7,370 bases of DNA, taken from Akkermansiaceae bacterium (GTDB taxonomy: Bacteria; Verrucomicrobiota; Verrucomicrobiia; Verrucomicrobiales; Akkermansiaceae). Shown piece by piece: positions 1 through 7,370 of this stretch (position 1 is the stretch's first letter; every line of letters starts with the position of its first letter). Location: the NCBI GenBank assembly GCA_903909905.1, contig CAIVXP010000163.1:1-7370 (forward strand). The letters run 5' to 3'. A program made the translations under genes and the position numbers. A model generated the notes under the pieces. The model searched no databases. It saw nothing but the letters and a program-made list of their open reading frames with translations, and was not told where the DNA came from.

Positions 1-856
1 TGGCATTCTCGTAGCACCAGCCGTGTTCAGTGAAATTACTTGCGATTTTGCCATTGTTCTTCATGGCCATGTCGACGAGATAGACGATCCCCTTGAGGCA
101 GGAGTCGCCGAATTCGTCCGAGGCTGGTGTTTCGCAGTGGCCGAAGTAGGCGAGCAGAGCAAGTCCGGTCATCGCCACGGAGTGCGAGCCGGCCCATGAG
201 CCGTCGGCCGATTGGTTTGCCTTAAGCCAGCGCAGGCCCTTGAGGACCGCCTCCTCACAAGCAGGAATTCCGCCGTTTTCTTTGAGGCGTTGCAAGCGGT
301 CCTCCTTTGAGCAGCGCTTGCGCATGGTTTCCGGGATGAGGCCGAAAAGTTTGCCAACGCCACCACCATTGCCCATGCCCGTGCCACCGCCGAGGCCATC
401 GCCTTTTCCGAAAGACTGCCCGACGCCGCCACCCAATCCGCCACCGCCCATTCCGCCGCCGCCCAGCGACGCAAGAGCGGACATCTCGCCGAAGCTGTCG
501 CCCGGATCGGGAATCGAGTAAGATGAAGTCGCACCTTCCGCAAAGACGCGCTTCACATTGGTCGAAGGGGTGATTTGCTGGCGCTTTTTCTGCTGGACCT
601 TGGTTTGTGCGCTGCGCTCGCCACCACCGCCACTGCCAGCCGGCATGAAATCGACTTTTTTCTCGGCCTCGACGATTACCTTATAAACCCAGAACCCGCC
701 CGCAATGAAGAGCACGGCATGTATGATGGCGGCAATCATCAGCGAGCCACCACCGAGCTTCATCCACCAAGTTTGTTTCTTGGGCGTGATCGGTGTGATC
801 GGTGTGGAGTGCTCGTCTTGATGGACGGCATTCTCATCGCTATCGTGATTTTCCAT
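1..856 (-). CDS. TonB-like membrane-anchored protein with squalene-cyclase-type (alpha/alpha-toroid) repeat domain, partial at 3' end
   Basis: I translated this frame by hand from the ATG at 856-854; it stays open for 285 codons and runs off the window. Residues 1-33 are hydrophilic and Thr/Pro-containing, ending in KKQTWWMK. Residues about 39-58 form one transmembrane helix containing His46, so the N-terminus is probably cytoplasmic and the rest periplasmic, as in TonB. Residues 77-128 are a polar linker with the basic stretch KVQQKKRQQ. Residues 132-168 are glycine-rich (24 of 37). From about 185 a helical region begins. It contains a clean QW-type motif, K206-G-L-R-W-L-K-A-N-Q215-S-A-D-G-S-W221, followed by the helix MTGLALLAYFGH and a weaker second repeat start (KGIVYLV, 255-261). 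This motif is characteristic of the squalene/hopene cyclase and prenyltransferase alpha/alpha-barrel superfamily. The catalytic part, if any, lies outside the window, so enzyme activity cannot be judged. The gene starts 37 nt after an exbD gene, in the place TonB would occupy. No Shine-Dalgarno sequence is visible before the ATG. I am sure of the reading frame and domain order, and unsure of the function. Confidence 0.85.
   Translation of the reverse strand, partial: MENHDSDENAVHQDEHSTPITPITPKKQTWWMKLGGGSLMIAAIIHAVLFIAGGFWVYKVIVEAEKKVDFMPAGSGGGGERSAQTKVQQKKRQQITPSTNVKRVFAEGATSSYSIPDPGDSFGEMSALASLGGGGMGGGGLGGGVGQSFGKGDGLGGGTGMGNGGGVGKLFGLIPETMRKRCSKEDRLQRLKENGGIPACEEAVLKGLRWLKANQSADGSWAGSHSVAMTGLALLAYFGHCETPASDEFGDSCLKGIVYLVDMAMKNNGKIASNFTEHGWCYENA
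353..463 (-). other. Glycine-rich low-complexity linker coding segment
   Basis: This segment encodes residues 132-168 of the TonB-like toroid protein. Glycine makes up 24 of 37 residues, in runs of three or four broken by Met, Leu, Val, Phe and a few polar residues. It lies between the membrane-proximal polar linker and the toroid domain, so it is probably a flexible spacer. On the opposite strand it reads as a proline-rich open frame, which is only its mirror image. Confidence 0.8.
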
Positions 857-893: not shown

Positions 894-1352
894 TTATTCC
901 GGACTTCCGGCCTGGAAGCTGACATTCGTGATTTTGGCTCGACTCAAGGCATCGAGAACATCGACCACCCTTTCGTAGCGCGCAAGTTCGTTGGCATAGA
1001 TCGTGACGAGCACTTCGGACTTCGAAGCGGCACTGCTTTCTCGAAGCTGGGAAAGGTTGCTGGCCAGTTCAGGCAACAGCTTGGCTTCGGGCGTGTCGAG
1101 CGGGTCGTCGTTGAGGGACACCTGTCCGTCGTCCTCGATGGTGACGGCAATCTCGTCGGGTGTCGGGGTATCGCTCTGGGTTTCGACCGTGCCGGGAAGT
1201 TTCGTGACATGCGCATTTTCCACCTGGATATCGCTCGCCGACACGATGAAGAAGAGAAGAATCACGAAGACCACGTCGATCATCGGCGCGATCTGGAACC
1301 CGAGGTTGACTTCGGCGTTGGCTTTCCGGCGGTGACGGTGTCTTCTGCTCAT
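894..1352 (-). CDS. exbD: ExbD/TolR-type biopolymer transport protein (second copy)
   Basis: This is a 152-residue ExbD/TolR family subunit of a proton-driven inner-membrane motor. The N-terminus is strongly basic (MSRRHRHRRK), which suits a cytoplasmic tail. The single transmembrane helix covers about residues 20-41. It contains the family signature FQIAPMIDVVFVILLFF, in which Asp26 matches the essential membrane aspartate of ExbD (Asp25 in E. coli). The periplasmic domain follows, with a beta-rich pattern (EIAVTIEDDGQVSLND, then SEVLVTIYANELARYERVVDVLDAL) typical of ExbD C-terminal domains, and the length is normal. I chose the ATG at 1352 because it directly precedes the basic tail. The longer frame from 1415 would overlap the preceding exbD and adds an unrelated Ser/Pro-rich stretch. 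The gene begins 7 nt after the first exbD, so the two are surely co-transcribed. It may form a mixed dimer with that copy. Confidence 0.93.
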   Translation of the reverse strand: MSRRHRHRRKANAEVNLGFQIAPMIDVVFVILLFFIVSASDIQVENAHVTKLPGTVETQSDTPTPDEIAVTIEDDGQVSLNDDPLDTPEAKLLPELASNLSQLRESSAASKSEVLVTIYANELARYERVVDVLDALSRAKITNVSFQAGSPE

Positions 1353-1359
1353 GGACGTG

Positions 1360-1794
1360 TCACTTGTTGGAAGAGGCGAATGCGATGTCGGCGATGCCGG
1401 CCTCACCGATGACATTCATGACCTTCTGAATCTCGCCAGCGGGTACGGCAGCATCGCCCCGAACGACGATGCGCAGTTTCGGGTCGCGCTGGCGTTTTTC
1501 CTGAAGGATCGGGACGACCTCTTGCCAGTCATTGAAAATCCGATCGTCGACGACGAGCACGCCTTTGTTGTTGGCGGCATCGTGACGGAGGTTGACCGCC
1601 ATTTCGTGCTTGGCCATCTCGGGTTCGCGCTGCTTGGCGTTTGGCGAAACGGGTAGCTTGAGGTTCTTGTCGACCTTAAGCACCTCTGCGGAGGTGATCA
1701 TGACGAAGAAGACAAGCAGCACGAGCAGCACGTCGATCATGGGAGCAATCTGGAACTCAGGTTCCCCGTCTCCTCCTCCTCCACCACCGGCCAT
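1360..1794 (-). CDS. exbD: ExbD/TolR-type biopolymer transport protein (first copy, glycine-rich N-terminus)
   Basis: This is a 144-residue ExbD/TolR family protein. The transmembrane helix (about residues 16-36) carries FQIAPMIDVLLVLLVFF, with Asp21 in the place of the proton-relay aspartate. The periplasmic part has the usual alternation of strands and helices: HEMAVNLRHD, KGVLVVDDRIF, KLRIVVRGDAAVPAGEIQKVMNVIGEAG and a final IADIAFASS. The N-terminal tail MAGGGGGGDGEPE is unusual, because it has six consecutive glycines and net negative charge where ExbD proteins normally carry basic residues. It follows exbB by 48 nt and precedes the second exbD by 7 nt. It should sit inside the ExbB oligomer and couple proton flow to movement of a periplasmic partner. 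No Shine-Dalgarno sequence precedes the ATG. Family assignment is secure; whether it is specialised relative to the second copy is not known. Confidence 0.94.
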   Translation of the reverse strand: MAGGGGGGDGEPEFQIAPMIDVLLVLLVFFVMITSAEVLKVDKNLKLPVSPNAKQREPEMAKHEMAVNLRHDAANNKGVLVVDDRIFNDWQEVVPILQEKRQRDPKLRIVVRGDAAVPAGEIQKVMNVIGEAGIADIAFASSNK

Positions 1795-1842: not shown

Positions 1843-2649
1843 TCATGCCTCGGCAACTTCCGCGCCTTCCACGGCTTCCGCGCCCTGGACCCAGTTCGGC
1901 AATGCGGCATAGGTTTCCTCTTGGCCGACATCGGCGTCCTTGAGGTATTCGTAGGGCGCGTTGCGGAAGATGCGTTCGCTTTCCTCGTGGAGGTGATGAA
2001 CGGCACCTTGAAGTTTGTTGCGCAGGAAATAGAAAGCCATGAATGCAGGAATGGCCACAAGCAGACCGGCCGCCGTCGCGACAAGCACCTCACCGATGTG
2101 ACCGGCAAGCTCGCCCACGCCGCTGGAAAGGCCACCTGAGCCAAGGCTGCCGAAGGCGCCTTTCATACCACCCACGGTTCCGAGCAGACCAACCATCGGC
2201 GCGCAGACACCGATAACCGAAAGGTAGTTGATGCGGGTTTGCAGCGTGGAGTTGATTTTTTCGACCGTGGCATACAGAGCCTCTTCGGTTGCTTCCTTTC
2301 CGTAGCCGACCGAACCGAGACCGGCGCGCATCACCTCGGCAAAGGGACTGAAACTTGCCTTCATCGCTTGATAGGCGCCGACATAATCACCCGAGCGAAA
2401 CAGGCCTTGGGCAGTCGCGACATCATCAGCCGGCGTCATCTTCTTGCTGTTGGTGCGCATCCAGATGTCGATGATCAGCCACAACATGCCGATGGAGAAA
2501 ACCAACAGGAAGTGCATGACCCAGCCGCCTTCTTGGTAGGTGTCGAGAATGGTTTTTTCGGTGACGCCGGCCTTGGGTGCGGAGGCAAAGGCAGTCACGG
2601 GAAGCAACAGAAGCGCGGTGAGCGCGGCTTGGCGAATGGTGGATTTCAT
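1843..2649 (-). CDS. exbB: MotA/TolQ/ExbB-type proton channel protein
   Basis: This 268-residue protein is the channel-forming subunit of an ExbB-ExbD type motor in the inner membrane. Residues 1-24 look like a cleavable signal peptide (MKSTIRQAAL, a Leu-rich core, then AFASA). A short periplasmic segment follows. Three transmembrane helices are visible: about 42-62, about 143-163 (APMVGLLGTVGGM), and about 186-208 (GEVLVATAAGLLVAIPAFMAFY). Glu187, Thr158 and Thr192 correspond by motif to conserved polar residues of the ExbB channel (Glu176, Thr148 and Thr181 in E. coli). The cytoplasmic loop between helices 1 and 2 is about 80 residues, as expected for the family. The C-terminus ends in an Ala/Glu-rich acidic tail (255-268). 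ExbB proteins with an added N-terminal signal peptide occur in several phyla, so the extension is not in itself strange. It begins 42 nt after the 278-residue TPR-like gene and is followed by two exbD genes. Confidence 0.94.
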   Translation of the reverse strand: MKSTIRQAALTALLLLPVTAFASAPKAGVTEKTILDTYQEGGWVMHFLLVFSIGMLWLIIDIWMRTNSKKMTPADDVATAQGLFRSGDYVGAYQAMKASFSPFAEVMRAGLGSVGYGKEATEEALYATVEKINSTLQTRINYLSVIGVCAPMVGLLGTVGGMKGAFGSLGSGGLSSGVGELAGHIGEVLVATAAGLLVAIPAFMAFYFLRNKLQGAVHHLHEESERIFRNAPYEYLKDADVGQEETYAALPNWVQGAEAVEGAEVAEA

Positions 2650-2691: not shown

Positions 2692-3528
2692 TTATTTCAA
2701 TGATTCAAGAAGCCTGTTGGCTTGGTCGGCCAAAATCGTTTCTTGACAGACAAGCAGTGCCGATTTGACCAACACGCCTGCCTCATCGCGGCGGTTGAGT
2801 ATCTCGAGCAGGCTTGCGGCATGGATTTCCGCAGCCGCATTGATGATGAGTCCACCCGAGGGAAAGAGGCCCGGAACCGAGAGATACGCTTGGAGCGCTT
2901 CGGTGTTTTTCTTTTGCTCCTTCAGCAACTTGGCGCGGAAGAACGTAGCGTAAGCTGCAACATCGGCAGGCAGGTTGTCGGTCGTCATGTCCTTGAGCGC
3001 CATTTCACGGTCCTCGAAGCTTGCGCTCGAAGACATGAGCAGGGCTTTGCCGAGCGAAACAAAAGGATCGCTGCCTTGGGCTGGAGTCGCATCGGAAATG
3101 TCTTTGCCGATCTGGGTCGCGCGAGCGGCATCTCCCATCAATGCATAGGCGACGAGCAGGGCGCGGGCCGACTCGGTCCAGAAATTACCCGCAATCTTTG
3201 CCGAAACACGATGGGTCGCGGCCACTGGCTCGAGCTTGGCAATCGCGTCCTGAGGTTTCTCGACAAGCAGCAGCGCGATGGCTTGATTCAGCTCTGGCGG
3301 TCTTTCACCAAAGACGTGGCTCACGGCAGCCAGCGGAAAAGCCTGTCCTGGGTTGAAGCCCTCGGTGGCGGCTTTGATGACGACTTTGTCCTGTGCGATA
3401 TCAACGGCATTGAGCGGCACCGAACGGCCGTTCTGAAAAACCAGCTGCGCGGACGATGCAATGAGCGGCGCGGACGAAAGCGCCAGTACGGCGGCGACGA
3501 GTCGGGTGATTGAAGTCATGGTGGACAT
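2692..3528 (-). CDS. Secreted protein with N-terminal beta-rich segment and TPR-like helical repeats
   Basis: This is a 278-residue protein with a signal peptide (hydrophobic core VAAVLALSSAPLIA, cleavage probably after A27 in SSA-Q), so it is likely periplasmic. Residues 28-75 look like a small beta domain: QLVFQNGRSVPLNAVDI, then DKVVIKAA, then AFPLAAVSHVFGE. From about 82 to the end it is all helical, with TPR-like pairs at 82-105, 113-143, 188-218 and 230-260 (for example YATFFRAKLLKEQKKNTEALQAY). The ATG at 3528 lies 12 nt after the stop of the large TPR gene. A second ATG three codons on (3519) would give nearly the same signal peptide and cannot be excluded. I do not recognise a named family. 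By position and architecture it is probably an accessory protein of the ExbB-ExbD system. That role is inferred only from the neighbours. Confidence 0.85.
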   Translation of the reverse strand: MSTMTSITRLVAAVLALSSAPLIASSAQLVFQNGRSVPLNAVDIAQDKVVIKAATEGFNPGQAFPLAAVSHVFGERPPELNQAIALLLVEKPQDAIAKLEPVAATHRVSAKIAGNFWTESARALLVAYALMGDAARATQIGKDISDATPAQGSDPFVSLGKALLMSSSASFEDREMALKDMTTDNLPADVAAYATFFRAKLLKEQKKNTEALQAYLSVPGLFPSGGLIINAAAEIHAASLLEILNRRDEAGVLVKSALLVCQETILADQANRLLESLK

Positions 3529-3540
3529 GGCCTGGGCGTA

Positions 3541-6420
3541 TTAATTCATCTCTGCCGCCTTTTTCGCGGGTTTGGTATTTTTGAGTTTTGGGTGTTCGGC
3601 CAGCGCCTTGAGGGTTTCGGCCGCGAGCGTTTCTTCGCCAAGTTCTTTGGCCGTCTCGTAGGCCTGCCAGTAGGCTTCGGCGCAGACCTCGGGGAATCCT
3701 TGGTAGGCGACATAAACGCGCTGATAGGTGCCATGCGCTTTCTTGAGAAGTTCGGTGCCCTCGGGTCCGGTCGCCTTGGCCGCCTGCTTGCGATAGGCTT
3801 TGGCGAGCAGCATGTAGGCTTCGCCGGCCGACTGGCCGCGGAACATCTTGTCGCCCACGGTCTGAAGCGCGAGCTTGGTGGCATCCTCATATTTTTCCAG
3901 ATCGACCAACGCCTGGAGCTTGCCAACGGTGGCTTCCTTGAAGCGCGACATGCCTGGATTGTTCTGTAGGGCCTCATCAAAAATCTTGAGGGCATCCTGA
4001 GGTTTTTTGCGGGCGAGCGCCACCAAGCCCATGCCCACAGGGCCGGAATCGGAAAATGACGACTCGCTGTAACGCTCGACCAAGCGCTTGTACATGGCCT
4101 CGGCTCCATCGAGATCGCCGTTTTTGAGGAGAATGTCGCCAGAAACCGTGAGCAGGGCGGGACTGAGCACCGTCGGATCCTTGGCGTTGGTGGTGGCGAT
4201 TCCCTTGAGGTAGAGGTCGGAGCGGTCGCCGCGGCGAAGAAGTTGGGCGAGGCGGGCCCGCGCGTAATAAATCCGTGCGGCGGTCGTCGGGTTCTCTTGG
4301 CCGGCAACAACCTTCGCGAGAATATCGGTGAGTTGCTTGTCGACGGCATCGACGTCGATTTCCGAAGGTTTCTTTCGCGGCACAAGTGTTTTGACCAACT
4401 CGTCGATGAGGAATTCCACCTGCTCACTGGAGGGCTGGCCGATGCGGCTCTTGAGCGACTCGCCCAGCAAGTCGGCGGCCTCAGCGGCCTTGCCGTCGCG
4501 AGTTTTCATTTTTGCGACCCATGTGGCGGAAAGCAGCGCGAGCGAGCTGTCTGGCTTGCGCTTGAGGAATTCGCCATGCAATTCAGCGACGCCCGCCCAG
4601 TCCTTGCGGCCCTGAAGGATCGTTGTGGCAGAATCCAACGCGTATTGGATCACATCTTCGGGACTGGAGGTCCAAACCGCTTTTTTGTAAGCCTCGAGCG
4701 CCTCGTTCTCCTTGTTCTTGCGCTTGTAGGTATCGGCGAGGAGGCAGAGCATCGAAGCATTGGCATCGTCATCCGGGTGATCGTTGAGGAATTTGGTCAG
4801 GTCGCGGATGACTTTGTCGGATTGATCTTCCTCCTTGTCGTTGAAGTCGATGAAGGACAGACGATAGCGCATGTCGCCGGCGTAGCGGCCATCGGGAAAT
4901 TTCGTGAGGTACTCGTTGCATGCCGCCAGCGTCTCCTTGTACTTGTTGGTAAGAAAATTCGACATCGCCACATAATAGAGGGCGTTCTCGATGAGCGGAC
5001 TGTTGGGGTAGGATTTATTGAACTTAGCAAACATCGGCGACGACTCGGCGAAATTGCCTTGCTGGAATAGGGAAAGCGCTTGGAAGAACACGAAGCGGTC
5101 GATATTGGCCGATTGCGGGAATTTGATTTCGAGATTGCGGTAAAAATTGCCGACTTCCTTCCAGTCGCCACTCTGGACAAGCACCTCACCCGCCAAGGTG
5201 GCGACCTGCTCGATGTTCTCGGCATCGGGGTATTTGCGCATGTACAGCTCGCACATCTCCTTGATGCCCGCAATGTCCTGGCGCTTGTTGAGAAGCACGA
5301 TTTCGGCAAACGCGGCCGCCTTCGCATCGGCCGAGGATCCGTACTTCGTGCGCAGCGCACGGAAGCAGACCAGGGCCTCCTCGTAGCGGTCGAGATAAAA
5401 AAGGCAACGACCGCGGCGCATCAGCAAGGCGGCATCGAGATCTTTCTTGTCTTCTATGGCCTTGAGCGCTTCTTCCGCGACTTTGACTGCGGGCTTGAGC
5501 ACGGCGACCAGTTCGGGCGCCTTGCTGCGTTGGTTGACCGGCTTGGTTTTGTCCGCCTCGGCACGAGCCTCAAGAATGCCGAGCTCCCGGCGCATTTCGT
5601 CGAGCGCCAATGTCTGGGTCGCGATGATCTGGCTGCGGGGAGGAATGGCGCGGTAGATGGCCAAGGCCGACTCATAGGACTGCTTCGATACCAACTCGTC
5701 GCCAAGCACCAGCATCTGATTCACATACCAGGCCAGCGCGTCGCGCACGCCCGCCTGCCCGGACAGGCGGTCGAGGTAGGCGATCAGATCGCGGACGCTG
5801 CCACCATCGGCAAGAAGGGTCACCGACTCAACCGCCGCCGTCGTCTGCTGCGGGGTTCTCACATCGGAACCCATCAAGCTGCGGAAAACCTTAAGCGCAT
5901 CATCATGCTTGCCGAGGTCGGTGTAAACCTGGCCAAGAAGCAGGCCCGCCTCCGAGCGGAACTTGGGATCAGCCGCGGCGTTTTTCAACAACTCGATCGA
6001 CTGGAGCTTTTTCTCTTCCGTGCCTTGCATGGTGCAGGCGCGACCAGCGCCAAGGTAGCACCGCGATGCGTACTCGCCCTTCGGAAAACGCTTGAGGCAG
6101 TTGAGAAATGCGACCTCCGCTTCCGGCGCTTTGTTGGCAAGCAAATTGGCCAGGCCAATGTTGAAATAGAGCGTCTCGAATGGCGCGTCCGGCGTGTTGG
6201 CCAGCGCTTTCAGCAGTTGGCCGATCTTTGAAATGACCGAGGCATAATCTTTTGAAGAAAACGCGGCATCAACTTCATTGAAAAGGCGATTGATCGCCGC
6301 CGGCGAAATCAACTCTGCGGGTGCAGCAGGTGGATCTTGGGCCATGGATGTGGCAGCAAGCCCAGCAAAAAGCGCTGCGCCGACGAGGCGCACAGGGTAT
6401 TTGGCGAACTGGATCATCAT
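3541..6420 (-). CDS. Large secreted tetratricopeptide-repeat protein
   Basis: From the ATG at 6420 this encodes 959 residues. Residues 1-27 form a signal peptide (FAKYPVRLVGAALFAGLAA, then SMA before Q28), so the mature protein should be periplasmic. The rest is a nearly continuous array of TPR-type helical pairs. Clear units lie at about 82-114, 156-187, 330-362, 443-474, 479-511, 553-583, 752-786, 791-822 and 866-905. Those at 443-520 resemble the BamD/YbgF type (YPNSPLIENALYYVAMSNF, then KFPDGRYAGDMRYRLSF). The tail is Lys-rich (KLKNTKPAKKAAEMN). The frame is open 46 codons further, to 6558, but that would run into the queA stop region and bury the signal peptide inside the protein. A start at 6417 (second Met) is equally possible. 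It is the first gene of the presumed operon, and its stop is 12 nt before the next gene. TPR arrays bind proteins, so a scaffold role for the envelope machine encoded downstream is likely but inferred. Confidence 0.9.
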   Translation of the reverse strand: MMIQFAKYPVRLVGAALFAGLAATSMAQDPPAAPAELISPAAINRLFNEVDAAFSSKDYASVISKIGQLLKALANTPDAPFETLYFNIGLANLLANKAPEAEVAFLNCLKRFPKGEYASRCYLGAGRACTMQGTEEKKLQSIELLKNAAADPKFRSEAGLLLGQVYTDLGKHDDALKVFRSLMGSDVRTPQQTTAAVESVTLLADGGSVRDLIAYLDRLSGQAGVRDALAWYVNQMLVLGDELVSKQSYESALAIYRAIPPRSQIIATQTLALDEMRRELGILEARAEADKTKPVNQRSKAPELVAVLKPAVKVAEEALKAIEDKKDLDAALLMRRGRCLFYLDRYEEALVCFRALRTKYGSSADAKAAAFAEIVLLNKRQDIAGIKEMCELYMRKYPDAENIEQVATLAGEVLVQSGDWKEVGNFYRNLEIKFPQSANIDRFVFFQALSLFQQGNFAESSPMFAKFNKSYPNSPLIENALYYVAMSNFLTNKYKETLAACNEYLTKFPDGRYAGDMRYRLSFIDFNDKEEDQSDKVIRDLTKFLNDHPDDDANASMLCLLADTYKRKNKENEALEAYKKAVWTSSPEDVIQYALDSATTILQGRKDWAGVAELHGEFLKRKPDSSLALLSATWVAKMKTRDGKAAEAADLLGESLKSRIGQPSSEQVEFLIDELVKTLVPRKKPSEIDVDAVDKQLTDILAKVVAGQENPTTAARIYYARARLAQLLRRGDRSDLYLKGIATTNAKDPTVLSPALLTVSGDILLKNGDLDGAEAMYKRLVERYSESSFSDSGPVGMGLVALARKKPQDALKIFDEALQNNPGMSRFKEATVGKLQALVDLEKYEDATKLALQTVGDKMFRGQSAGEAYMLLAKAYRKQAAKATGPEGTELLKKAHGTYQRVYVAYQGFPEVCAEAYWQAYETAKELGEETLAAETLKALAEHPKLKNTKPAKKAAEMN

Positions 6421-6539: not shown

Positions 6540-7370
6540 TCAAACAATCAACATGCAATCGCCATAGCTGAAGAACCGGTAACGATTCTCCACCGCCTGA
6601 CGATAGGCGTCCAGCATCAGCTCGCGACCGGCGAGGGCACTGACGAGCATCAGCAAGGTGCTTTGCGGCAGGTGGAAATTGGTGAGCAGGCCGTCGATCG
6701 CGCGAAACTCGTGCGGCGGGTGAATGAAGATATCGGTCTCGCCCGCGTGGCGGGTTTCCGCGATGCGCGTTGCGGCTGACGGGTTTTGTTTTGCCAGAGC
6801 CTCGAGCACGCGGGTGACTGTGGTGCCGACCGCCAGCACGCGGCCTGCGGCATTCACGCGTTTGGCGGTTTCCTCGGTGACCATGAATTTCTCCAAGTGC
6901 ATCACATGGTCGGTCACCACATCAGCGCTCACCGGGCGAAAAGTGCCGACGCCAACATGCAGGGTGAGGAAGGCGTGCGAAATACGCTCGAGCATTTCGG
7001 AGGTGAAATGAAGTCCGGCGGTCGGCGCAGCGATGGCGCCTTCCTCCTGAGCATAGACCGTCTGATATCGTTCGCGGTCGGCCTCGTCCTCGACGCGACC
7101 CATGTAGTGCGGCAGCGCGAGTTGGCCGTGCTTCTCAAGGTCGAGCGGCGAGTCCCAACGGATTAGGCGGTCGCCATTTTCAAAGACCTCGGTCACCACG
7201 CCGCGAATGCCGCCGACACAAACTTCGCGCCCTAGCTTCATGCGCTTGCCCGGCCGCACGAGGCAACGCCATTCGAGATCGGACAAACGATCGAGGCAGA
7301 GCAACTCGATGCTGCCATCATCCGAAAACACGCGCGCCGGAATCACCCGCGTGTTGTTGAGCACCAGCAA
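6540..7370 (-). CDS. queA: S-adenosylmethionine:tRNA ribosyltransferase-isomerase QueA, partial at 5' end
   Basis: QueA transfers and isomerises the ribosyl part of S-adenosylmethionine onto preQ1 in tRNA, making epoxyqueuosine, the penultimate step of queuosine synthesis in the cytoplasm. The window holds the last 276 codons. The family is about 340-360 residues long, so some 65-80 N-terminal residues lie beyond position 7370. The first codon seen is TTG and should be read as an internal Leu, not a start. Family motifs, numbered from the first codon present, are NNTRVIPAR (5-13), RYQTVYA (101-107), APTAGLHFT (115-123), LHVGVGTFRPV (137-147), AVGTTVTRVLE (180-190), LTNFHLPQSTLLMLVSALAG (229-248) and YRFFSYGDCML (264-274). 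No frameshift or loss is visible. Its stop is 119 nt before the TPR gene. It is on the same strand but probably belongs to a different transcription unit. Confidence 0.97.
   Translation of the reverse strand: MLVLNNTRVIPARVFSDDGSIELLCLDRLSDLEWRCLVRPGKRMKLGREVCVGGIRGVVTEVFENGDRLIRWDSPLDLEKHGQLALPHYMGRVEDEADRERYQTVYAQEEGAIAAPTAGLHFTSEMLERISHAFLTLHVGVGTFRPVSADVVTDHVMHLEKFMVTEETAKRVNAAGRVLAVGTTVTRVLEALAKQNPSAATRIAETRHAGETDIFIHPPHEFRAIDGLLTNFHLPQSTLLMLVSALAGRELMLDAYRQAVENRYRFFSYGDCMLIV

Follow-up and report, generated by a model that had tools for sequence, protein, structure and literature searches.

In textbooks, the proton gradient is put to work at the outer membrane through two arms, TonB and TolA. 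According to a passage in PMC12215075 the two share the motif Ser-x3-His-x6-Leu-x3-Ser, whose Ser and His contact ExbB/TolQ, and a passage in PMC10907165 gives the pattern of the TonB D-box, the strand bound by ExbD. In 2025 arms with a vWA head were proposed for the PVC group; these transducers have a disordered linker and are encoded behind genes for a TPR protein, a tolQ-like protein and two tolR-like proteins (PMC12204202, Williams-Jones et al. 2025). The terms "squalene", "toroid", "prenyl", "cyclase" and "PA14" are absent from the main text of that paper, and a published toroid-headed transducer was not found among the matches listed for the open-licence literature. The locus described here, from an Akkermansiaceae genome, encodes an anchored protein whose predicted toroid would be a further head type, if the reading given below is true.

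Gene layout of the window

The window, i.e. the whole stretch of DNA analysed, is the complete contig C163 of 7370 bases from a draft genome of 2.06 Mb that is 92% complete. All genes named here lie on its minus strand according to the ORF list and the Pfam and NCBIfam scans, in the order queA, TPR, hypothetical, TolQ/ExbB, ExbD, ExbD and, last, the toroid gene. The queA gene (ORF and family scans) is cut at 7370. It is followed by the gene for a TPR protein with YbgF/CpoB-type repeats (3541..6420, ORF to 6558), which scored 106.8 bits against the NCBIfam model TIGR02795 (cut-off 90.1), and by a gene for a hypothetical protein (2692..3528) that is kept in the operon; both proteins have a signal-peptide-like start as judged by eye. 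Family scans identified a TolQ/ExbB-like motor subunit (1843..2649) and two ExbD/TolR-like proteins (1360..1794, and 894..1415 with a likely start at 1352), which differ from each other and each carry a transmembrane Asp in the motif PMIDV. The operon order TPR-hypothetical-ExbB-ExbD-ExbD-toroid recurs among the loci of relatives.

The toroid gene (2..856; ORF and relatives) comprises codons 1-285 of a protein of about 538 aa at full length. Its start was placed at 856 on the basis of a comparison with the relative P0002, and starting at the in-frame ATG at 925 would make the gene overlap exbD; it is incomplete because the contig ends, leaving base 2 as its last. The remaining 3' sequence, which the initial annotation had proposed to obtain, lies on no contig of the draft genome, as a search with P0002 returned only residues 1-285 on C163 and two distant toroid proteins on C57 and C356. 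Full-length relatives were used in its place, the nearest being P0002-P0004 (535-538 aa, 93-94% identity over 93% of a 308-residue query), while the nearest named relatives belong to the Verrucomicrobiota (Akkermansiaceae/Verrucomicrobiaceae). The window's genome encodes another small anchored toroid protein of 355 aa (L053 8062-9129, G000 C57), which is located among large membrane proteins with no Pfam match and near lpxI.

The RNA scan of the window revealed no tRNA and no Rfam match, promoter-like sites were not above the level in shuffled sequence (1 vs 1.9), and terminator-like sites numbered 16 vs 8.6 in shuffles (sd 3.1). A function in anti-phage defence was rejected, as none of the six scanned proteins matched PADLOC at E 0.001.

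Anchor, linker and head of the toroid protein

The short tail, single transmembrane helix, flexible linker and QW-like repeats noted in the initial annotation are present as it described them. The helix spans about residues 39-60 (677..742, minus strand) and carries Ala-x3-His where TonB and TolA have Ser-x3-His, so that His46 (codon 719-721) sits at the place of TonB His20 and TolA His22. In 232 of 239 relatives the residues preceding the helix carry a more positive net charge than those following it, which fits a tail on the inside. The block VDFMP directly after the helix (641..655, minus strand) is common to toroid, PA14-like and vWA heads and is a candidate motor-binding strand; it is followed by a Gly-rich linker (317..640, minus strand) in which the alignment contains the conserved blocks VKRVFAEG and IPDPGD. 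Together with the position of the gene behind ExbB and two ExbD genes, the His and the conserved block after the helix support the TonB-like anchor and motor that had been postulated.

Two groups of relatives were compared at these positions. Among the 120 best relatives of one full-length query, representing the window's type, the His is present in 120/120, with Ala at -4 and Gly at +7. The 120 best relatives of a second full-length query, the distant type, have it in 119 cases (one protein is without a helix), as chosen by a script favouring a His preceded by S, T or A; the residue at -4 is Ser in 102, Thr in 13, Ala in 3 and Leu in 1, and Leu occupies +7 in 77/119. After the helix, 57/119 distant-type proteins show the D-box pattern (300 shuffles averaged 11.6 and never gave more than 21), and 7/119 have it with both flanking prolines (shuffles 0.48, maximum 2). 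The window's type has the pattern in 0/120 (shuffles 4.3) and the VDFxP block at that place instead. VDFxP occurs in 31/41 ExbD-adjacent toroid proteins, in 3/11 with the His and no ExbD, and in 0/31 without the His; it tracks the anchor and not the head, which would fit a motor-binding role. Cys182 and Cys241 are both present in 25/25 rows of the window's type and absent in 41/41 distant-type rows, a contrast that amounts to one lineage split, with position 182 a gap in the distant type. This pair would fit a periplasmic disulfide.

After tail, helix and linker, repeats of the type LRWLKANQSADGSW form the start of the head, the first two of about 6 repeat units lying at 2..316 (minus strand; profile and self-comparison). 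The window's piece alone reached no Pfam family, and its NCBIfam matches to squalene/oxidosqualene cyclases were weak (E 0.017 and 0.019). A profile of 66 relatives (A3) matched squalene-hopene cyclase in the PDB with E=2.4e-15, summed over repeats; single stretches were weak when a 92-row profile was aligned with this enzyme. Comparison of the profile with itself gave repeats at offsets of 49, 58, 59, 108, 117, 153, 166 and 261, scoring 15.4 to 32.9 bits against a maximum of 14.3 bits in 100 column permutations. Repeat units lie at about residues 201, 248, 306, 364 and 470, so that five of the six expected for a six-fold toroid are accounted for; this self-comparison detected no unit between residues 390 and 465, where the remaining one would fall. 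The head is thus predicted to be an alpha/alpha toroid of the squalene-cyclase repeat family, as the initial annotation had it. Relatives of the toroid are present in 89/97 genomes of the family and 195/387 of the phylum. Y282, Y289, E293, D342, S344, Q351, Y389, Y447, Y448, W461 and N465 are invariant polar or aromatic residues in the 66 A3 rows.

In the profile search against cyclase and thioester families that the annotation had suggested, the cut-off of SQHop_cyclase_C was passed by three of the four scanned relatives, with P0002 at 25.4 bits vs a cut-off of 26.1, whereas TED_complement matched P0002 only weakly and below its cut-off (E 0.055); weak Pfam matches to Pec_lyase and Glyco_hydro_88 were mostly below cut-off as well. 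The middle Asp of DXDD is, by the numbering and role that we assume for squalene-hopene cyclase, the catalytic one, and at its place the alignment to this enzyme has T, G, V, P, A or C in 92/92 rows, as judged on full-length relatives over a weak local stretch of about 8 bits that lies beyond the end of the window's piece. The last Asp of DXDD is kept (D342) in 92/92 rows. Anywhere in the protein, position disregarded, D.DD occurs in 1/120 of the window's type and 21/120 of the distant type. Judged by this motif, the toroid protein is no terpene cyclase. CGEQ or GC.EQ, which we take to be the thioester motif, is absent from 240/240 relatives.

Motor neighbourhoods and other heads on the same anchor

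Two samples of loci were drawn, one by the toroid and one by the motor. The toroid-drawn sample consisted of the best 80 loci among 469 stretches encoding a relative and gave 91 toroid rows, 11 of which were dropped (6 with no room upstream, 5 short), leaving 80 to be judged. ExbD is immediately upstream of 41 of these 80 genes, and for 35 of these an ExbB gene lies no more than 2.5 kb away. All 41 ExbD-adjacent toroid proteins of this sample have the helix His, and the 39 without ExbD include 28 lacking it, one in which no helix was found and 10 that have it. Counted row by row, the association gives a Fisher p of 1e-13. The proteins are related to one another, however: a quick tree of 103 heads shows only 5 changes of the His state, and the link was not significant after correction for kinship (10 independent pairs, 0-2 along and 0 against, long branches flagged). 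In 21 further loci of the phylum ExbD and His occurred together in 12 cases, ExbD without His in 3 (one of these rows being a miscounted tandem ORF), His without ExbD in 7 and neither in 4 (p 0.41). A link between His and motor by raw count was therefore rejected, being strong in one sample and not on the tree.

The motor-drawn census was based on a profile of operonic ExbB proteins (A4) with 11 rows, every one toroid-adjacent, so that the census leans to toroid-linked motors. A4 matches 221/367 genomes of the phylum, and 47 loci were taken from the best matches listed, one per family (one family twice). For both samples of loci, the tree and the VDFxP counts, the head model was cleaned of the PA14-headed L059 and neighbours were sought among all ORFs. 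The place after ExbD is occupied by a toroid in 28 of the 47 loci (one of them, L245, a partial ORF with E 3e-8), by a vWA head in 3 (L225 by search, L224 and L248 by eye), by a PA14-like head in 1 and by an unrelated or spurious ORF in 4; it is empty in 8 and falls at a contig end in 3. Reading by eye gave a His at the motif place in 16 of the 28 toroid proteins and none in 12, with Pro there in 8; the script's count of 18 with His wrongly included L231 and L245. The toroid is the usual occupant of the place after ExbD in the census sample, and the TonB-type His is common, not universal. The motor-adjacent toroid proteins with Pro in place of this His are L245, L247, L253, L260 and L263-L266.

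The transmembrane Asp motif of ExbD is present in 118/129 proteins, and for ExbB the helix 2 pattern fits 63/72 and the narrow helix 3 pattern 16/72. Downstream of 56 ExbD-adjacent toroid genes there is a same-strand ORF in 38 cases. These downstream genes were rejected as a clue to cargo, since most often the gene is another ExbB (12), and in the other main group, of 6 genes, both scanned members are mutL. In relatives of the window a second block of ExbB, ExbD and a TPR protein of about 800 aa is located downstream of the toroid operon (L034 10476-14155; L036 3840-7520). The toroid transducer of L112 (9560-11464) has an extra N-terminal SAM domain before its helix.

Many toroid paralogs stand without motor genes; L105, L113, L117 and L123-L129, for instance, are toroid proteins with no His, no adjoining ExbD and a different type of helix. 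On plasmids one distant Planctomyces match to the toroid was found, with no motor gene annotated nearby in an incomplete gene table. The genus g3, perhaps Akkermansia, has toroid proteins without an adjoining motor in three loci, and 20 of its genomes are among the listed misses of motor profile A4 at E 1e-45. Its loci L200-L202 contain an ExbB-ExbD-TPR block followed by a PBP1A-type gene (one was scanned and fell below the model's cut-off), an arrangement suggestive of a motor that serves cell-wall synthesis. A mucin-utilisation locus in Akkermansia has reportedly been described in earlier work. Passages of PMC11790493 mention Mul1A once. A link of the toroid to mucin use in Akkermansia was rejected, as the g3 toroid proteins have no adjoining motor in the three loci.

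The toroid's anchor is not confined to toroid heads. We found 13 distinct proteins of the family that carry it with another head, PA14-like in 10 and vWA in 3, with [S/A]xxxH in 13/13 and VDFxP in 12/13, although this sharing is partly selection because the 13 were found by similarity of the anchor. Above cut-off, Pfam gave one PA14 head (L109, which is identical with the L040 gene) and one VWA_3 head (L198), and the remaining heads were assigned by similarity to PA14 or vWA heads, L050 by eye alone; L049, L050, L052 and L196 matched no Pfam family. Four further other-headed proteins (L203, L204, L208 and L213) lie outside the 13, L208 without VDFxP. Relatives of the PA14-like head are present in 26/94 and of the vWA head in 62/94 genomes of the family, with the anchor checked in part of them. 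PA14-headed and toroid-headed proteins occur in one cluster in L038, L039, L040, L059 and L061. One genome of the window's genus (G082) has nine matches to the PA14-like head.

These combinations raise the possibility, which we put forward tentatively and hold at somewhat less than even, that Verrucomicrobiota have a modular pulling machine driven by protons, whose motor-docking anchor can be fitted with a toroid, vWA or PA14-like head encoded at one operon position, toroid heads being the commonest. The head would choose the cargo, and the squalene-cyclase fold would serve as a mechanical grip and not as an enzyme.

Proposed mechanism and comparison with known systems

The operon order, the helix His, the Gly-rich linker, the repeat head and the fusion of the anchor to PA14-like and vWA heads can be read directly from the sequences. 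On this basis we consider it probable that the protein is a periplasmic transducer of the TonB/TolA working type, driven by the proton-motive force through its own TolQ/ExbB-ExbD-ExbD motor and bearing a predicted toroid head instead of a beta-rich domain. His46 would dock the helix laterally on the ExbB ring and VDFMP would bind the ExbD dimer, as the D-box of TonB does. Proton flow would then drive the motor of ExbB and two ExbD proteins, which would pull the linker, while the toroid, through its conserved polar and aromatic residues, may grip a partner at the peptidoglycan or outer membrane, assisted in the periplasm by the CpoB-like TPR protein. Several observations weigh against this reading: the His is missing from 12/28 motor-adjacent toroid proteins of the census, its link to the motor loses significance once kinship is considered, the window's type has no D-box pattern and has Ala at -4 and Gly at +7, the narrow helix 3 pattern fits few ExbB proteins, and many toroid paralogs occur without a motor.

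The initial annotation had left open whether the toroid is a binding head or an enzyme acting on a lipid or polyisoprenoid, and the missing catalytic acid at the aligned place makes the polyisoprenoid enzyme the weaker branch and a binding head the likelier one. More broadly, the protein might be a membrane-tethered periplasmic enzyme with a catalytic toroid, acting on a polyisoprenoid or, as in toroid-type lyases and hydrolases, on a glycan, with a motor that merely shares the operon or positions the enzyme. The residues invariant in the 66 A3 rows, kept although the distant type is about 30% identical to P0002, would speak for such an enzyme, as would the weak, mostly sub-threshold matches to Pec_lyase and Glyco_hydro_88. 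The replacement of the middle Asp in every row, even given the weak local alignment, and the scarcity of D.DD at any position in both types speak against it, however, as do the two toroid domains that triterpene cyclases contain, where this protein has one, and the other heads that fill the same operon place; we regard a catalytic toroid as unlikely. The anchored head could also be a thioester trap like that of alpha-2-macroglobulin, or a zinc domain like that of protein prenyltransferases. The related fold and the weak TED_complement match of P0002 would speak for this, whereas the thioester motif is absent throughout the relatives; we give this explanation next to no credence.

It is also conceivable that the toroid is merely co-transcribed as a passive anchored scaffold and that the real transducer is another protein, PA14- or vWA-headed, or that there is none. 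Such a scaffold would account for the motor-adjacent toroid proteins of the census that have no helix His, for the PA14-headed proteins with the same anchor near the operon in the five clusters named above, and for the paralogs without a motor. Yet it is the toroid itself that follows ExbD in most of the sampled loci, the His is kept in all 120 nearest relatives, and the anchor letters are common to the other heads, so that a passive role appears improbable to us. If the toroid protein is instead the transducer we propose, proton-driven envelope machines would be modular with exchangeable heads, the toroid being frequent behind the motor in the phylum (28/47, in a sample leaning its way), and a head made of a ring of helices would be a new grip for machines reaching across the bacterial envelope. 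It would then follow that part of the large group annotated as "prenyltransferase/squalene oxidase repeat-containing" or as "terpene cyclase/mutase family" consists of mechanical components instead of enzymes.

As for the place of the toroid system beside TonB, an ordinary TonB C-terminal domain was found above cut-off in 20/21 genomes of the genus and TonB-dependent receptors in 21/21, the domain not being found in the window's own draft genome. Since the genus has TonB and its receptors, the toroid-motor system is an extra one. The earlier proposal that the toroid takes the place of the TonB head thus holds for the predicted architecture of the protein but not in the sense of TonB being replaced in the genus.

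Like TonB and TolA, the toroid protein has a single helix at its N-terminus that contains the SHLS-motif His, a periplasmic linker, a C-terminal head and a motor of the ExbB/ExbD or TolQ/TolR type whose genes adjoin, ExbB, ExbD and ExbD being directly upstream. It differs from them in a head that is not a beta-strand-adding domain and in Ala for Ser at -4; TonB_C was not found in Pfam scans of the four full-length relatives and of L184, L174, L186 and L112, which gave cyclase-type families instead. The operon TPR protein resembles CpoB/YbgF, the TPR partner of Tol-Pal, in exceeding the cut-off of the YbgF model, and departs from it in its length of about 960-1000 aa and in that neither TolB nor Pal is among the window's genes. 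With squalene-hopene cyclase (SQHop_cyclase_C, PF13243) the head shares the QW-type repeats of an alpha/alpha toroid; unlike this enzyme, the toroid protein has a transmembrane anchor, a single domain and no DXDD acid at the aligned place. The vWA transducers of PMC12204202 resemble the toroid protein in their helix bearing a conserved His, linker and globular head and in their operon of TPR, tolQ-like, two tolR-like and transducer genes, which the window matches with the addition of the hypothetical gene between TPR and tolQ-like; its linker is Gly-rich, in contrast, and its head is a toroid of the squalene-cyclase type. Because TonB_C, a vWA head and DXDD are each lacking, the protein belongs neither to the TonB/TolA family nor to the vWA transducers nor to the terpene cyclases. 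On our best reading it works as a transducer of the TonB/TolA type and fits the newly proposed wider class, to which its head would be the new part.
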